Shown: positions 6,139 through 11,992 of the stretch, one piece after another
Layout: each line of letters begins with the position of its first letter
Numbering within the stretch: position 1 is the stretch's first letter
Assembly (NCBI GenBank): GCA_022508685.1
Contig: JAFLUS010000022.1
Span: 1 to 12,887 of the forward strand
DNA from: Prevotellaceae bacterium
GTDB taxonomy: Bacteria; Bacteroidota; Bacteroidia; Bacteroidales; Bacteroidaceae
Direction of reading: 5' to 3'
Length of the DNA: 12,887 nt
The notes under the pieces: generated by a model
What the model saw: only the letters and a program-made list of their open reading frames with translations
Databases searched by the model: none
What the model was told of the DNA's origin: nothing
Translations under genes and position numbers: made by a program

Positions 6139-8145
6139 TCAGAGGCGGCCTACGTTGATGCGGATGCCCATGTAGCCTACGGCGCCATGGACGGGGCCCC
6201 AAACCATCGTGGGGTCGAAGCGGCTGCCCCATGGGTTGGCGGCATCGATGATGAGTTGGCGCTGACGCACGCCGGTGAGGTTTTCGCCGCCGACGTAGAC
6301 GGAGAAGTGGCGGAACCATCGGGTGACTTGTGCCGACAATTGTTCGAAACTGCCGAAGCGGGGGTGCCACGACAGCGTGCCGTCGTCGCAGACGTAGGGC
6401 TGCGGCATCCGTCCGCTGCCGTTCAGCGTGAGGGTGGCGTCGAACTGCCAGAGCCCGAGCGGCGTCTTGTAGGATGCCGTGAGCAGTCCCTTGTAGCGGT
6501 TGGTGAGGGGTTTGCGTCGCAGCACGCCTCCGTAGGTGGTCTTGACGTTCTGCCAGCGCCATGCTGCCGTGAGGGAGAGTCCTTCGAGCAGCGGATAGGT
6601 GGCGTCGGTCTGGAACGTGTGCGAAAATGAACGTCCGTCGAGATTGCCGATGTGCAGCACGGCGGGGTCGGTGTCGTAGTCCAGCACCATTTGCCGGCGG
6701 AAGCGGGTGTAGTAGTATTCGGCGTTGAGTTGCAGCGTCTTGCCGAACAGCGGAACGTAGAAGGCGGCACTGCTGCCGACGTTCCATGCCTCTTCCTGCC
6801 GCAGGCGGTCGATGCGCACGGCGCGTCCCGTGGCGAGGAGATTGAAGTTTTCGGCGAGTGCGTGGGGCGTGCGGTAGCCTTTCCCTGCCGACAGACGGAG
6901 GGTGAAGAAGTCTGCCGGCGCGAGTTTGACATGCAGCCGCGGCGTGCAGAACGTGCCGTAGATGCTGCTGTGGTCGGCTCGGACGCCTGCCATGGCGACG
7001 ATGCGCTCGCTATGGTTGAACGTGTACTGAACGTAGGCACCGGGGGTGGTTTCGTCTTCGACGGCGCGGACGGCGTCGAGCGTCGGACGCGAGCGGTCGT
7101 AGTTGAGCGATGCGCCCGCCGAGAGGTGGTGGTCGCGCCCGAACTTCGATTCGTACATCAGGTGGGCGTAGAGGTTGCGCTCCTCGTCGGTGAAGGCGTG
7201 GCTGCCGAGCAGGGCATCGACGTCGTGCAGGGCGGCAGATGCCATGAGGGCGATGTTCGAACCGCGTTCGGGGTCGATGATGAAGGCGTGCTTCATGTAG
7301 CCTTCGTAGCGGTCGGTGGTGATGCCGATGAGATAGGGGCTGACGGGATGCAGCGGAGCGGCGTTCGCGGCGTGGTGGCCGACGCGCTGTCCGCCGGTGC
7401 GCCGTTCGCGCAGCAGACTGACGCCGGCATGGAAGAGGTAGCGGTCGGCGGCAAGTTTCCAGCGGTTCTGCACGTTCCATTGGCGCACGGAAGGCTGGTC
7501 TTGAAATCCGTCGGCGTTGGCGTCGTGGCGTTCAAAGTCCTTGTCGTAGTGGAGCAGCACTGCGGTCGAAAGCGTGGGGCTGAGGCGGACGGAGGCATCG
7601 GCGTTGGCTTCGAAGCGGCTCTGCGTGTTGCCGTAGAGATTGAGGGTGACGCCTTCGTCGGCATCGGGCTTGAGGTATTCCACGTTGATTTGTCCCGTCA
7701 TGCTTTCGTAGCCGTTCTTGACGGAGGCGGCTCCCTTCGACACCTGAATGGACTGCATCCACGGGCCGGGAATGTAGCCCAAGGCGAAGGGGGCGGCTGC
7801 GCCACGGAAGGCGGGGAGCGTCTCGGTGAGCATCTGCACATACGTGCCCGCGAGGCCGAGCAGACGGATTTGGCGTGCTCCGGTGGCGGCGTCGCTGTAC
7901 GATACATCGACCGACGGGTTGGTGACGAAACTCTCGCCCAGATTGCAGCAGGCTGCACGGAAGAGTTCCTGCCGTCCCGTCACGGTGCCGTTCTCTGCGC
8001 CGCTCATGCGCAGCACGCGGGGACGGAGCGTCGTGACGTTCACTTCCTGAAGGTCGTGCTCCATCTGTGCGGAGTCGGCAGGCGTCTGCCCCACGGCACG
8101 GAGGGCGAGGAGCGTCAGTATGGAAAACAGGATGCGTCGGTTCAT
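6139..8145 (-). CDS. TonB-dependent outer-membrane receptor
   Basis: From the ATG at 8145 the protein has 668 residues. Residues 1-20 are a signal peptide (MNRRILFSILTLLALRAVGQ). A possible TonB-box-like stretch, LQEVNV, lies at 32-37. The plug domain (about 40-158) contains AACCNLGESF (65-74), SVDVSYSDAATGARQIRLLGL (near 78-98) and the plug-end motif SIQVSKGAASVKNGYESMTG (132-151). The rest is barrel, rich in alternating aromatic strands and ending with INVGRL. There is no N-terminal carboxypeptidase-regulatory-like domain and no adjacent SusD, so it is not a SusC-type glycan importer. This plug family is commonly found beside HMA proteins, and that arrangement holds here, suggesting uptake or handling of a metal such as copper. 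The frame extends ten codons upstream, but the signal peptide and promoter spacing favour 8145. Confidence 0.9.
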   Translation of the reverse strand: MNRRILFSILTLLALRAVGQTPADSAQMEHDLQEVNVTTLRPRVLRMSGAENGTVTGRQELFRAACCNLGESFVTNPSVDVSYSDAATGARQIRLLGLAGTYVQMLTETLPAFRGAAAPFALGYIPGPWMQSIQVSKGAASVKNGYESMTGQINVEYLKPDADEGVTLNLYGNTQSRFEANADASVRLSPTLSTAVLLHYDKDFERHDANADGFQDQPSVRQWNVQNRWKLAADRYLFHAGVSLLRERRTGGQRVGHHAANAAPLHPVSPYLIGITTDRYEGYMKHAFIIDPERGSNIALMASAALHDVDALLGSHAFTDEERNLYAHLMYESKFGRDHHLSAGASLNYDRSRPTLDAVRAVEDETTPGAYVQYTFNHSERIVAMAGVRADHSSIYGTFCTPRLHVKLAPADFFTLRLSAGKGYRTPHALAENFNLLATGRAVRIDRLRQEEAWNVGSSAAFYVPLFGKTLQLNAEYYYTRFRRQMVLDYDTDPAVLHIGNLDGRSFSHTFQTDATYPLLEGLSLTAAWRWQNVKTTYGGVLRRKPLTNRYKGLLTASYKTPLGLWQFDATLTLNGSGRMPQPYVCDDGTLSWHPRFGSFEQLSAQVTRWFRHFSVYVGGENLTGVRQRQLIIDAANPWGSRFDPTMVWGPVHGAVGYMGIRINVGRL

Positions 8146-8172
8146 TTTGATGTCTATGTCGAAATTGTCGGG

Positions 8173-8204
8173 CAAAGGTACGCATTTTCCGTAGGGTGCG
8201 CAAA
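8173..8204 (-). promoter_or_regulatory. Promoter of the receptor-HMA transcription unit
   Basis: On the minus strand TTTG (8204-8201) and TACCTTTG (8180-8173) are spaced by 20 bp, matching the Bacteroidetes consensus closely. The start site would be near 8168, giving a leader of about 22 bases before the ATG at 8145. Confidence 0.85.
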
Positions 8205-8228
8205 GTAGGGTAACATCGGCCGCTGCTT

Positions 8229-8244
8229 TTTAACGCTCTTTAAC
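8229..8244. promoter_or_regulatory. Pair of TTTAAC half-sites upstream of the receptor promoter
   Basis: TTTAAC occurs at 8229-8234 and 8239-8244, starts exactly 10 bases apart, about one helical turn. The pair lies roughly 25-40 bases upstream of the receptor -33 box, a position suited to an activator. A ten-base match covering the second copy (TTTAACCTTT) recurs at 8789-8798. The identity of any binding protein is unknown. Confidence 0.3.
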
Positions 8245-8270
8245 CTTTGGCAGTGCCGTCGGGCTGCCTT

Positions 8271-8305
8271 CGCGCGCGCGTGCGCGTTCCTTATAATATA
8301 TAAGG
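8271..8305. other. Alternating CG tract next to an AT-rich palindrome
   Basis: Positions 8271-8286 are 16 bases of strict pyrimidine-purine alternation, nearly all CG, a sequence type that can adopt Z-form DNA under supercoiling. Two bases later comes CCTTATA-ATA-TATAAGG (8289-8305), a perfect 7-bp palindrome around three bases that could melt or extrude. It lies between two divergent genes, where negative supercoiling is expected. No gene function is evident. Confidence 0.5.
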
Positions 8306-8369
8306 GAGTTCGGAGGAGGTGGTTTTCCTGTTCGGACGAAAAGTTGCCCGACCGCAGACGAGGGACAAA

Positions 8370-8545
8370 AGTGTCGCGACGGGGTTGAAATTGTGTCGCG
8401 ATGCAAGTGAAATTCTGTCGCGACGCGGCTGAAATTCTGTCCCTGACAAAATAAAATTCCGTCCCTAACAAATTTCACTTGCGTCGCGACAAAATTTTAC
8501 TTGCTTCCCTGAGAAAAAAAACTTTGTCAGGGACGAAATTTTCGG
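8370..8545. repeat. Tandem array of eight imperfect 22-base units
   Basis: Eight units of 22 bases run without spacers at 8370, 8392, 8414, 8436, 8458, 8480, 8502 and 8524. Each has a core near its fourth base: GTCGCGAC in units 1, 3 and 6, GTCGCGAT in unit 2, GTCCCTGAC or GTCCCTAAC in units 4 and 5, TTCCCTGAG in unit 7, and the reverse form GTCAGGGAC in unit 8. Cores start at 8373, 8395, 8417, 8439, 8461, 8483, 8505 and 8526. The rest of each unit is AT-rich (GAAAT, AAAAT, TTTTACT). The 22-base period is not a multiple of three, so it does not look coding. It could be a multi-site operator, since 22 bp is close to two helical turns, or an intergenic element of a dispersed family; the sequence alone does not decide. 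Confidence 0.8.
8386..8499. repeat. Long inverted repeat inside the 22-base array
   Basis: Arm 8386-8414 pairs with arm 8471-8499 over 29 positions: 26 Watson-Crick pairs, two G-T pairs (8387/8498 and 8402/8483) and one mismatch (8393/8492). The innermost 12 pairs are perfect (GCAAGTGAAATT with AATTTCACTTGC). The 56-base interior holds units 3 to 5. A second pair, 8432-8450 with 8523-8541, matches at 17 of 19 positions, so alternative folds compete. As RNA from either strand this would form a strong hairpin; as DNA a cruciform. Confidence 0.75.
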
Positions 8546-8960
8546 CTCATCGCGGCATTTTGTAAATCGTTCAGTATCAACGTGTTGAAAAATCGGCTTT
8601 TTCGGCAGTTTTTCGCTTCGGCAGCCGTTCCGAGGGGCAGGATGCTGCCGACGGCGGAGGTGCGGATGTGGCAGAATGGGGTCGCAGAGGGGGTGTTCCG
8701 GCTCCGAAAAGCGCTCGAAACCCTGTCGCGGACGACGGCCGACGGCGATGCAGACAAATTGCCGTACTTTGGCACAATGTTTACAAATTTTAACCTTTCG
8801 GAGGGTGCTGCCGACGCGATGTCAATGATTTTTCCCAACGGAACAAAAAGTTTTCCGAAACGAAACAACGGGCATTTCCGTGCCATCCGACCGATTGCGC
8901 TCTGCCGACCGTCATTTGCCCCCATGCAGACGAAAAACGGCGGCGCAGTAGTTAAAGTTT
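8546..8960. other. Intergenic stretch with no recognised gene
   Basis: Open frames on both strands here have no recognisable domains, no convincing start signals and mutually overlapping compositions. One isolated degenerate core (GTCGCGGAC at 8725-8733, preceded by GAAACCCT) resembles the array units. I see no RNA gene or mobile element. A small RNA cannot be excluded. Confidence 0.55.
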
Positions 8961-9005
8961 GTTAATATCGAAGCATGAACTGCACCGATTTTCGAAAAAT
9001 GTGCG

Positions 9006-9013
9006 TAAATTTG
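9006..9013 (+). promoter_or_regulatory. -7 box for the large secreted protein gene
   Basis: TAAATTTG matches the Bacteroidetes -7 element exactly. No good TTTG lies at the right distance upstream (TTTG at 8958-8961 is too far), so the promoter may need an activator or another sigma factor. The start site would be near 9018, leaving an AT-rich leader of about 44 bases to the ATG at 9062, favourable for initiation in this group. Confidence 0.6.
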
Positions 9014-9061
9014 GGCGTATTTCAAATTTTCTAATACTACACAATTCTAACATTTTATCAC

Positions 9062-11992
9062 ATGAAGAAACTCTACAAACTGATGGCTGTCGGCGCCCTC
9101 TTTGCCGGCAGTGCAGCCACGATGCAGGCCGTAGACTTCCCCACCACGACGGCGGGAGGCGCACCTGTGGACGGCGGCAAGTATGTACTGGTGAACGCCA
9201 TGAAGGTGACGGGCTACATGAGCCGCACCGGCTGGGACGGCGCTTTCTACTTTAACGGAAACACCATCAATCCCGCCCATGCCCTCACGGCACAGGACAA
9301 CGGCGACGGAACGTGGTCGTTCTACATCACCGAAAGCAACGGCGACAAGACGTATGTCGGCATTCCCTCGGGAACGCCCAACCTCCACGCACGCGCCAAC
9401 GAAATGAAGGAACCTATCTGCTGGACCATCGAGGAAGGCAGCATCGAAGGCTACTACGGACTGCGTGCCGGCGAGGGCAACGCTGACCCCGCCAACGGCA
9501 TCCTGCTCCACCTCAATGCCGGCGTGGAATACTTTGTGATATCCGTTCCCGCATTCCCGTGGTATCCCGACTATGCCGGCGGCGCACAGGAGGAAGGCGA
9601 CGGCACGGACGACGTGCACGTATGGATTGAAGACGAGAACGGCCGTGCACTGATGAACGACCACACGTCGGAGAACTGGAAATTCCTCTCCATCGACGAC
9701 ATCGACGCCTACTACCTGCCCTTCACCGCCTACGACCTGCTGACGCAACTCGAAAACGAGTATCTCGAACTCGACGGGTTTGCAACCGGTTTCCAAAAGA
9801 CCTATGACGACGCCCTCGTCATCTACAACGCAGGTGCCGACATGGACGCACAGGCCATCATCGACATGGTGAACGCCAAAATCGCCCTCTACGAACTCAT
9901 CGTACAGGCTTCCGACCTCGATGCCGACGCCATGCTCGAAGCAGCCATCACGAAGGCACAGACGACGTTCGACACCGTCAGTGACCCCGCTGCCATCGAA
10001 GCCGCAATCGCTGAACTGACGGAAGCCATCCGCCTGTTCCAGTTAGGCGGTGGCGACTACACCAGTTTCGGACAGAACATGAGTTTCGAAGACCTCTCCG
10101 CACAGGGCGGCAGCACCACCACCGGCGTGGCAGCACCTCCCGCAGGCTGGAACGTCTTCATCGAAGGCAAGCAAGTGACCACCGCAGCCGAAGTCACGGC
10201 AGCAGGCATCGGCAACTGGCACGGCGTGAACGCCGACTGCGCCGGCGAAGCGAAAGACGGCAACTACGGCTTCGGCATCTGGGCTGCAGGCATCCCCGAC
10301 TACGAAATCTCCCAAACCATCACCGACTTGGAGAACGGAACCTACATCGTCACCGCAGGCATGATGGTCGGCGCCAACAACAGCGGTTCGCGCCGCACCA
10401 CACAGCGCATCTTCGGTAACCTCAACGCCTGCTACTTCGGCTACTCTGACGACTACGACGAAGAAAAACTCAACATCCTCGAAGTGCCGGCATACCAGAA
10501 CAACGTCGAGACAGTGACCGACACCGACCTCTCTCCCATGGAACTGCGTGCCTACGTCTACGACGGAACGCTCACCTTCGGTCTGCGCACCGACGGCAAC
10601 ATCGCAGCAGCCTATCGCGACACCAAGAACAGCGCAGGCGGTGACGGATGGTTCAAGGTCGACAACTTCCGCATACAGAAAGTGGGATACGTCGGCGAAG
10701 ACGCAGCCAACGTAGCCAACTACTTCCTCGAAGCCTTCAACCGACTGGCAGGCGAACCGATGGAAGCCAACCTGTCGAACACCGTCGACGAAATCACGTC
10801 GACCTACGACTACCTCGACGCCGACACGCCCGCAGACGACATCAATGCACGCATACAGGAACTGACGGCACTGCTGAAGGACGTGAAGGCAAGTTGTGAC
10901 GCCTACGAAATGCTGCGCCAAGCCATCGACGCCGCATACGAAAAGGCAGCCGAATACCAATACTACGGAGGCTACGAAGACTTCCTCATGACCATTTACG
11001 ACGTGGAAGACAACTACTCCGAAGGCATGTACGACCTCGACGGCGTGGCTGCAGCCATCCAGCGACTGCAGGAAGCCGAAGACGCATGCGCGAAGAGCGG
11101 AATTGCCGTCGGCGAATACATGAACATCATCAAGAACCCCGGCTTCGAAGACCTCTCCGCACAGGGCGGCAGCGTCAGCGACGGCGTACAGAACACACCC
11201 GCAGGCTGGGACCTCTACATCGACGGTGAGAAAGTCAGCCGCGCTCCATTCGGAGGCTGGTGTGCCATCAACCACGGCGACCCCATCAACGAAGTGGACG
11301 AAAACGGAACCGATTGGACAACGCAATACACCGAAGGCGAACACCTCTGGGGTATCTGGACCGAAGTCGTGCCCGAAGTTCAACTCTCGCAGACCTTCAC
11401 CGGAATACCCGCCGGCACCTACGTTCTCTCCTGCGACATGGTCGTACAGTACAACTGGGCAGGCCCGTGCGTTACCACACAACGCATCTTCGCCAACAAC
11501 TACATACAGATGTATGGCGACGAGTACACGTATGCCGAAGGCCTGAACGACACGCCCGACATGACACTCGCCAAGACACTCGACGGCGACACGCCCGATG
11601 CTGAAACTCCGTACATGAACTACGCCGGCTACATCAACGCATCGCAAGGTGGTGCCACCTCGTGTCCGCACCCCATGAGCCTGCGCTTCGGCGTCGGTGA
11701 AGACGGAAACCTCACCATCGGCTTCCGCACGAACAACGTCGCTCCCGACGGTACGGTACAGCCCTACTCCGGTGCCGGATGGTTCAAACTCGACAACTTC
11801 CGCCTCTTCTACGAGACCGAAGACACCCCGACCGGCGTCAGCACCGTCAACGGCAATGCTGTCGAAATGGTTGGCCGCCAGTTCTTCACCGTAGACGGCG
11901 CACAAATCCAACAACCGCAACGCGGCATCACTATCGTGAAGAACATCATGAGTGATGGCAGCGTGAAGGTGACGAAGGTTATGAACAAGTAA
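9062..11992 (+). CDS. Large secreted modular protein with two binding-like domains
   Basis: This 976-residue protein has a signal peptide (about 1-23, MKKLYKLMAVGALFAGSAAT) and no transmembrane segment after it. Modules in order are an N-terminal beta-rich domain (about 25-215); a helical, acidic FIVAR-like linker (about 222-328); a beta-sandwich domain (about 335-542); a second helical linker (about 546-684); a second beta-sandwich (about 687-918); and a C-terminal tail (about 936-976, GRQFFTVDGAQIQ then GITIVKN) resembling Bacteroidetes secretion or sorting tails. The two sandwiches are paralogous: both open with NxxFEDLSAQGGS, share PAGW, TTQRIF and GWFKxDNFR, and resemble carbohydrate- or galactose-binding-like folds. 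No catalytic motif is visible. A role in surface adhesion or glycan binding is inference. Export by the type IX system is possible but depends on whether the genome encodes it. It stands alone, with no SusCD pair or hydrolase beside it. Confidence 0.85.
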   Translation: MKKLYKLMAVGALFAGSAATMQAVDFPTTTAGGAPVDGGKYVLVNAMKVTGYMSRTGWDGAFYFNGNTINPAHALTAQDNGDGTWSFYITESNGDKTYVGIPSGTPNLHARANEMKEPICWTIEEGSIEGYYGLRAGEGNADPANGILLHLNAGVEYFVISVPAFPWYPDYAGGAQEEGDGTDDVHVWIEDENGRALMNDHTSENWKFLSIDDIDAYYLPFTAYDLLTQLENEYLELDGFATGFQKTYDDALVIYNAGADMDAQAIIDMVNAKIALYELIVQASDLDADAMLEAAITKAQTTFDTVSDPAAIEAAIAELTEAIRLFQLGGGDYTSFGQNMSFEDLSAQGGSTTTGVAAPPAGWNVFIEGKQVTTAAEVTAAGIGNWHGVNADCAGEAKDGNYGFGIWAAGIPDYEISQTITDLENGTYIVTAGMMVGANNSGSRRTTQRIFGNLNACYFGYSDDYDEEKLNILEVPAYQNNVETVTDTDLSPMELRAYVYDGTLTFGLRTDGNIAAAYRDTKNSAGGDGWFKVDNFRIQKVGYVGEDAANVANYFLEAFNRLAGEPMEANLSNTVDEITSTYDYLDADTPADDINARIQELTALLKDVKASCDAYEMLRQAIDAAYEKAAEYQYYGGYEDFLMTIYDVEDNYSEGMYDLDGVAAAIQRLQEAEDACAKSGIAVGEYMNIIKNPGFEDLSAQGGSVSDGVQNTPAGWDLYIDGEKVSRAPFGGWCAINHGDPINEVDENGTDWTTQYTEGEHLWGIWTEVVPEVQLSQTFTGIPAGTYVLSCDMVVQYNWAGPCVTTQRIFANNYIQMYGDEYTYAEGLNDTPDMTLAKTLDGDTPDAETPYMNYAGYINASQGGATSCPHPMSLRFGVGEDGNLTIGFRTNNVAPDGTVQPYSGAGWFKLDNFRLFYETEDTPTGVSTVNGNAVEMVGRQFFTVDGAQIQQPQRGITIVKNIMSDGSVKVTKVMNK
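10085..10114 (+). repeat. 30-base direct repeat, copy 1
   Basis: These 30 bases, starting TTCGAAGACCTCTCC and encoding FEDLSAQGGS, recur without a single change at 11144-11173. They mark the start of the first beta-sandwich module. Flanking sequence diverges at once, so the identity is local. Confidence 0.85.
11144..11173 (+). repeat. 30-base direct repeat, copy 2
   Basis: This is the exact second copy of the 30 bases at 10085-10114, 1059 bases downstream and in the same reading frame, at the start of the second beta-sandwich module. Recombination between copies would delete 353 codons in frame, removing one module and one helical linker. Confidence 0.85.

Follow-up and report, generated by a model that had tools for sequence, protein, structure and literature searches.

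An array of cores spaced at 22 bp in a Prevotellaceae genome appears to be one copy of a lineage-specific dispersed intergenic element

A regularly spaced array of short, near-palindromic cores lies between two divergently oriented genes in a stretch of 12,887 nucleotides from a Prevotellaceae bacterium (GCA_022508685.1, contig JAFLUS010000022.1; the whole stretch that was analysed is referred to here as the window), and its position raises the question of whether the array is an operator of one of its neighbours or one copy of an element that recurs throughout the genome. The initial annotation, made from the letters of the window, gave these two readings equal weight, and proposed in addition that the spacing of the cores is under selection.

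The core starts in Table 1 bear out the spacing that had been annotated, with six steps of 22 bp followed by one of 21 bp across eight cores, as well as the divergent intergenic setting and the inversion of the last unit, whose core GTCAGGGAC is the reverse complement of GTCCCTGAC. While the array and its period stood, the strict alternation of two core types did not, as GTCGCGAC-like and GTCCCTGAC-like words follow one another in mosaic order. Two features are absent from the annotation: the A+T-rich spacer (AAGTGAAATT-like) keeps one direction over four places and is reversed at the next two (>>>><<), and the array is also an imperfect inverted repeat whose arms are 84% complementary. Relative to column-permuted controls, the dyad symmetry of the whole array had a p value of 0.005, and 5 of 11 arrays in the same genome had p <0.05. 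Identity across 8372-8548 was 0.61 at lag 22 and 0.59 at lag 44, and the best 110-nt segment of the array had 78 matches at lag 22, compared with 45 on average and 54 at most in 500 dinucleotide shuffles of 8176-9061 in which all lags from 12 to 59 were searched. TRF also detects the array, with periods of 22 and 44.

Table 1. Units of the 22-bp array, the inverted repeat within it and the two neighbouring genes (window coordinates).
Feature	Position	Strand	Description
Unit 1	8372..8393	+	core GTCGCGAC at 8373, forward spacer
Unit 2	8394..8415	+	core GTCGCGAT at 8395, forward spacer
Unit 3	8416..8437	+	core GTCGCGAC at 8417, forward spacer
Unit 4	8438..8459	+	core GTCCCTGAC at 8439, forward spacer
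Unit 5	8460..8481	+	core GTCCCTAAC at 8461, spacer inverted
Unit 6	8482..8503	+	core GTCGCGAC at 8483, spacer inverted
Unit 7	8504..8525	+	degenerate core TTCCCTGAG at 8505
Unit 8	8526..8547	-	inverted core GTCAGGGAC at 8526, after one 21-bp step
Imperfect inverted repeat inside array	8400..8507	no strand	arms 8400-8436 / 8471-8507
TonB-dependent receptor gene	6139..8175	-	divergent neighbour, outside element
Gene of 976-aa protein	9062..11992	+	divergent neighbour, outside element; Pfam match weak, below cut-off

BLAST of the array against its own assembly (2.06 Mb in 350 contigs, 86% complete) resulted in 15 matches on ten contigs including that of the window, and thus on nine others, while a degenerate core pattern allowing up to two mismatches matched 129 times in the genome, compared with 20 matches for the reversed control pattern. 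These results uphold the dispersed-element side of the initial annotation, and support the conclusion that the window array is one copy of a dispersed element and not evidently an operator. Ten own-genome arrays were chosen because they resemble the window array; of their 51 scored steps, 49 were best at lag 22 and the other two at lag 23 (lags 16-28 were compared, and a further two steps, weak and likewise best at 22, did not reach the threshold and were left out). The arrays differ in their core, with GTGCCTAAC, TTCGCGAC, TCTTCGACG and CTCTGCGGAG all represented. A simple count gave seven units for the window array, 5-10 for eight others and two for L043, that is, about 5-10 cores per copy in nine of the ten. 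No shared ends were seen by eye in the flanks of own and genus arrays, with the exception of two own arrays (L041 and L042) whose common right flank of ~200 bp runs to the contig ends, suggesting that it is part of a longer repeated segment.

An operator of the TonB receptor gene or of the gene of the 976-aa protein would be in keeping with the divergent location of the array and with near-palindromic cores that share one helix face. On the receptor side, however, none of 80 receptor relatives from public genomes (52-64% identity) has a 22-bp array in the 1 kb or less examined upstream (less upstream sequence was covered for L089, L139 and L140), and neither do any of three clear same-genus orthologues, one of which (L235) has arrays downstream of the receptor. 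Control of the receptor was rejected on these 80 relatives and three same-genus loci. Arrays also adjoin many different genes and are rarer than expected in divergent regions, and we regard an operator role for either neighbour as extremely improbable.

The location of the arrays was evaluated with a simple home-made gene caller. Of the 34 genus arrays, none lies mostly inside a predicted gene. Among 47 placed arrays (three predicted-coding arrays were excluded from the 47, and one edge array from a set of 33), 16 sit between convergent genes, where 7.4 would be expected (p 0.002), and 6 sit between divergent ones, where 12.1 would be expected (p 0.045). In G101, a related genome of the same family, only 2 of 27 copies are divergent, though divergent regions make up 45% of the sampled intergenic length. 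The arrays thus avoid both genes and divergent intergenic regions, and since the latter are disfavoured, the divergent place of the window copy is unusual. As a separate observation, a ribD-like gene is followed directly by a 22-bp array in each of two genera, the two arrays being unrelated (L290 and L329, which are one place in G101, and L214 in G005).

Searches of 13 genomes from the genus, 60 from the order and 81 from the family each matched the letters of the window array in a single genome, its own; judging from these sequence comparisons the letters appear to be species-specific, and the period of 22 does not, as intergenic arrays with this period and unrelated letters are found repeatedly in the window's genus and family. 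An unbiased scan of lags across 40 stretches from the genus (626,544 b) identified 34 arrays at lag 22, seven at 21 and three at 24, with none at lags 19, 20, 23, 25 and 26. Twenty-three of the 34 come from a single genome, G001 (56% complete), from which six extra stretches were added after it looked dense; the first genus batch alone (237,573 b) gave 11 arrays at lag 22, three at 21, one at 24 and none at 20 and 23. Four of the seven period-21 arrays look by eye like 7-mer-like units (L147:4911-5063, L147:8495-8619, L208:9380-9519 and L209:7970-8097). In the family, the first 18 stretches (340,549 b, unselected) held four arrays at lag 22, one at 21 and none at 23. The family total (1,140,549 b) was 20, three and two at lags 22, 21 and 23, respectively, and includes 40 further stretches, 20 from G101 and 20 from G073 and G142, where G101 and G073 were picked after an array had already been observed in each. 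The 80 receptor loci (826,027 b) held nine arrays at lag 22, four at 21 and two at 23. Some of the stretches called for in these scans were nonexistent or short.

In 19 stretches from other Bacteroidales families (346,677 b), lag 22 gave no array and lag 23 gave one, and the same scan of 200 kb of E. coli K-12 gave no array of any period from 17 to 27. The zero in the other families is weak, because the unselected family rate (4 in 340,549 b) predicts only about four arrays there. At lower stringency, TRF reported two arrays of period 22 and five of period 23 in this control and 11 and nine, respectively, in the receptor loci, so that 22 is not exclusive. One 23-bp-period array in another Bacteroidales family (L187:9615-9775) has 62 of 66 matches and, together with the 23-nt units of the BrickBuilt element discussed below, raises the possibility of a 23-bp lattice in other lineages.

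Autocorrelation of intergenic DNA in G001 peaked at lags 22, 44, 66 and 88 (z 11.7, 8.8, 5.6 and 4.3), with a z of 0.1 at lag 23 and a lag-22 identity of 0.365 versus a baseline of 0.270. Lag 22 was the top lag between 12 and 120 in G005 (z 3.6) and G010 (z 3.5) and the second in G011 (z 5.5, behind lag 66), and was not leading in G002 (z 2.6, with lags 21 and 14 higher) or G004 (z 0.7); the other-family control had a z of 0.5. Array density per 100 kb was 15.5 in G001 and 1.7-5.0 in G002, G005, G010 and G011, with no array found in 80 kb of G004. Dyad symmetry exceeded a z of 1.5 in 38% of the 47 arrays, and arrays of some other periods score equally high; as it is present in part of the arrays only, general dyad symmetry was rejected as a rule.

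The best-defined form of the element was found in G101, a near-complete genome (two contigs, 99% complete), where a sequence of ~90 bp occurs at a minimum of 40 places with 79 BLAST matches, 40 of 80 candidates having been scored. Thirty-one of the 40 places were read letter by letter (nine are unread), and four cores were counted at all of these except L330, which has three. A script returned a run of exactly four cores at 22-bp steps in 28 copies. It missed L295, which has four cores by eye, and its 5-core run at L268 was judged to be four cores and one outside match; among the 32 runs, two 3-core runs (L320 and L325), which supply all three of the 23-bp steps, were judged spurious. The ends of the element, the inverted pair GAATTATTT / AAATAATTC, are conserved, and conservation drops outside both. 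No such pair was seen at the window array, and common ends were not seen by eye in the 120-bp flanks of the genus arrays.

A second species of the same genus, G167, has ends similar to those of G101, and all 14 of its entries (13 loci, as L254 and L277 are one place) carry four cores at steps of 22, 22 and 22, only 22-bp steps having been sought. Its core has changed from TTTTCATGAAAA to a TTTACRYGTAAA-like word, and the congener therefore keeps the architecture with a changed core. No element site common to the G167 loci and the compared G101 copies was found, many of the flanks being only ~500 bp long. L254 of G167 and L286 of G101 share a gene that is ~1.3 kb from the element in one genome and beside it in the other; the other G167 loci have no gene in common with the compared G101 loci, except for a weak similarity of L254/L277 to L293. 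G101 also holds several further, unrelated core families on the same 22-bp lattice. In G142, which belongs to another genus, a four-core-looking array (L359:4874-4970) has the inverted ends TATTATTAGGGTC / GACCCTAATAATA and a sequence unrelated to the G101 element.

Selection on spacing, which had been suggested from the window array, is supported, and best so in G101, where length is held through 303 substitutions in 28 copies that diverge by 13% from their consensus. Alignable intergenic DNA from 18 related pairs had 1077 substitutions and 237 gap openings, or 4.5 substitutions per indel, although these pairs overlap and range from 1.5 to 21. At 4.5 per indel, 303 substitutions lead one to expect ~67 indels in the 28 copies, which were selected for exact spacing. 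Among the 79 BLAST matches, to which no spacing filter was applied, only three, at 3 of the 40 places, differ in length from the query, bearing in mind that local alignments can stop at indels; 38 of the 40 places gave a match of 83-101 bp. These sequence data support the conclusion that array length is constrained despite the 13% divergence.

We favor, with a probability of roughly 55%, the explanation that the window array belongs to a lineage-specific, dispersed, non-autonomous intergenic element that is recognized cooperatively by a putative factor. Such an element would have no protein-coding gene of its own and would consist of a lattice of short, often palindrome-like cores 22 bp, or two helical turns, apart; copies have four cores in the best-studied relative, and nine of the ten own-genome arrays have about 5-10. 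The sequence of cores and spacers turns over between species while the lattice stays. A putative multimeric DNA-binding protein would bind adjacent cores cooperatively along a single helix face and would probably be the factor that spreads or keeps the element, such that copies losing the spacing would no longer be recognized. The copies themselves show the dispersal, the sharp period, the fixed core number (in those read of two genomes), the turnover of sequence, the constraint on length and the avoidance of genes and of divergent regions; protein binding, a single shared factor and mobility of the element are what we infer from this pattern. Cooperative recognition fits the two-turn spacing, the interchangeable cores of either orientation, the fixed core number and the finding that substitutions are tolerated and indels are not, while non-autonomous spread fits the fact that sister species carry the element at different places.

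Several observations count against this explanation. A single sequence-specific protein would not explain the several unrelated core families of G101; much of the genus sample is biased towards G001, while G002 and G004 have no leading peak at lag 22; dyad symmetry is not universal, and the window copy itself is divergent; sharp ends were seen only in G101 and G167. In addition, no clear target-site duplication was seen around the copies read by eye and no partner enzyme was found. A linked transposase-like gene, which the initial annotation proposed to look for, was not found, and no recurrent flanking gene emerged when 298 flanking ORFs were compared all against all. Groups of ribD, SusD-like protein and ABC ATPase genes, with at least three locus names each, each reduce to two independent places, and a linked gene was rejected, as no flanking family occurs at more than two.

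The literature, which was covered through titles and the start of abstracts with few subscription papers, describes no such 22-bp arrays in Prevotella. With their short, non-coding, dispersed copies the arrays resemble MITEs, and the nearest described elements are BrickBuilt and PINSR. In the available part of its description, BrickBuilt is a MITE found at 19 places in Porphyromonas gingivalis, with 1 to 22.8 tandem units of 23 nt per copy; IS5-like terminal repeats belong to its leader and tail, and 4 of 19 copies have both ends intact. The same text notes that tandem direct repeats of 41, 23 and 22 nt had been reported in P. gingivalis W83, with no locations given (PMC4596501). BrickBuilt is likewise an intergenic, dispersed and lineage-restricted array of short tandem units in Bacteroidales. 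It differs, as described there and not by comparison of letters, in its 23-nt unit (49 of 51 own steps here are 22) and in its leader and tail, the like of which was not recognized by eye in the flanks of own and genus arrays. PINSR of Prevotella intermedia and P. nigrescens, according to the portion of the report available, is also a non-coding intergenic repeat of high copy number (177-184) in one Prevotella lineage with no known mover, and by that description it differs in its 188-bp consensus and its lack of terminal inverted repeats (PMC4755523).

The main rival, which we consider possible though clearly the less probable account, is that a nucleoid or chromosome-organizing protein docks on the arrays, which would be useful to the host and maintained by selection on it, with core and protein co-evolving. 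It is consistent with the length held through many substitutions, with the change of core across the G167 copies read, and in part with the uneven placement in G101, where 35 copies are on contig C1 and five on C2. The C1 copies cluster towards the skew origin of that contig (Rayleigh p 6e-5), with none listed from 0.66 to 1.11 Mb. Only 40 of the 80 G101 candidates were scored, however; other core families, of which there are several unrelated ones per genome, do occur inside this gap; and four of the five C2 copies, at 604-711 kb, are far from dnaA at the start of C2, against an origin rule. Marking of origin-proximal DNA, suggestive on C1 and not on C2, was rejected on this half-scored sample. 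Of the two contigs, only C2 gave a DnaA match, located at its start, and C1 (1.80 Mb) is skewed as if replicated from its end. The lack of a shared element site between the G167 loci read and the compared G101 copies, within limited flanks, and the wide variation in density, from 15.5 per 100 kb in G001 to none found in 80 kb of G004, also speak against docking sites.

Ordinary minisatellites, which would arise from slippage and have neither function nor recognition, are an improbable alternative. Some arrays (L219:13199 and L203:18377 among them) do look like simple tandem repeats with similar units, and the unit number in G001 varies from 3 to 14 by simple count. Slippage, however, does not account for a sharp period of 22 in unrelated sequences, for four cores with few indels in the copies read of G101 and G167, or for a core mosaic that is kept in register.

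Plasmid iterons of Rep_3 origins are arrays of ~20-bp sites and in this respect similar to the arrays described here, which Rep_3-type replication initiators could accordingly bind as decoys, relics or origins. One G101 copy matched a Pantoea plasmid over 80 bp (83%, E 2e-10) at a site immediately upstream of a RepB gene, and the second chromosome of P. intermedia encodes a Rep_3 protein, as stated in the available part of its report (PMC4755523). The repeats of the Pantoea ananatis plasmid (L342:2441-2589, TTTCATG) resemble the G101 core family. Nonetheless, they have a period of 21 and a single orientation, whereas the arrays here are dispersed over chromosomes with cores in both orientations, and neither the window array nor three other families had a plasmid match. 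No recurrent family of replication initiator genes lies beside the arrays, the neighbours in the window being other genes. Two phage searches were empty, and nothing useful came from searching plasmids for the receptor. The iteron reading was rejected, as the sole plasmid match has period 21 and the window array is unmatched, and we hold it to be decidedly improbable.

REP, BIME and REPIN elements, described in part in PMC3733652, are short, intergenic, dispersed and lineage-specific palindromes, all of which applies here too; they differ from the strict 22-bp lattice without hairpin covariation described here. Movement of such elements by RAYT, a Y1 transposase, is highly unlikely for these arrays. 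RAYT genes occur in 7 of 13 genus genomes, and two of the three strongest RAYT loci in the genus have a 22-bp array within ~1.5 kb (L223:1101-1286 and L224:2664-2775, near two strong RAYT-like transposase genes). Against this, arrays lie near only 2 of 11 RAYT loci, one of ten genomes tested has a Y1_Tnp match, the window's genome has one weak RAYT match, and none was found in G001 (56% complete), the genome densest in arrays. Neither G101 nor G167, the carriers of the best-defined element, has a Y1_Tnp match, and a RAYT mover was rejected for their family on this basis, barring a diverged Y1 enzyme that escaped the search.

An RNA hairpin, terminator or cruciform, to which near-palindromic cores and the excess between convergent genes might point, has next to no likelihood and is disfavoured for the G101 family, as G101 copies matched their own reverse complement at 0.76 compared with 0.80 for the reverse complements of other copies, and pairing within core dyads was 0.795 compared with a shuffled expectation of 0.816, leaving no sign of compensatory change or of selection for a hairpin, and the window has no Rfam match at gathering scores.

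A broader form of the favored explanation is that the Bacteroidaceae share a sequence-tolerant 22-bp ruler, in which one conserved machine would read or build arrays by spacing and core symmetry, and on whose multi-core, two-turn lattice unrelated sequences and several families per genome would converge. We regard this as a speculative and rather unlikely extension. Dispersed repeats are usually recognized by their sequence, and here the letters change from species to species and even between the arrays of one genome, while what recurs through the changed letters is the spacing of 22 bp and, in two genomes, also the number of four cores per copy. Spacing therefore appears to matter more than sequence. 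Should a single factor prove to be responsible, it would represent a new way to mark or spread DNA in abundant bacteria of the gut and mouth; even without one, the arrays account for a share of intergenic DNA, as the elevated lag-22 identity of G001 illustrates.
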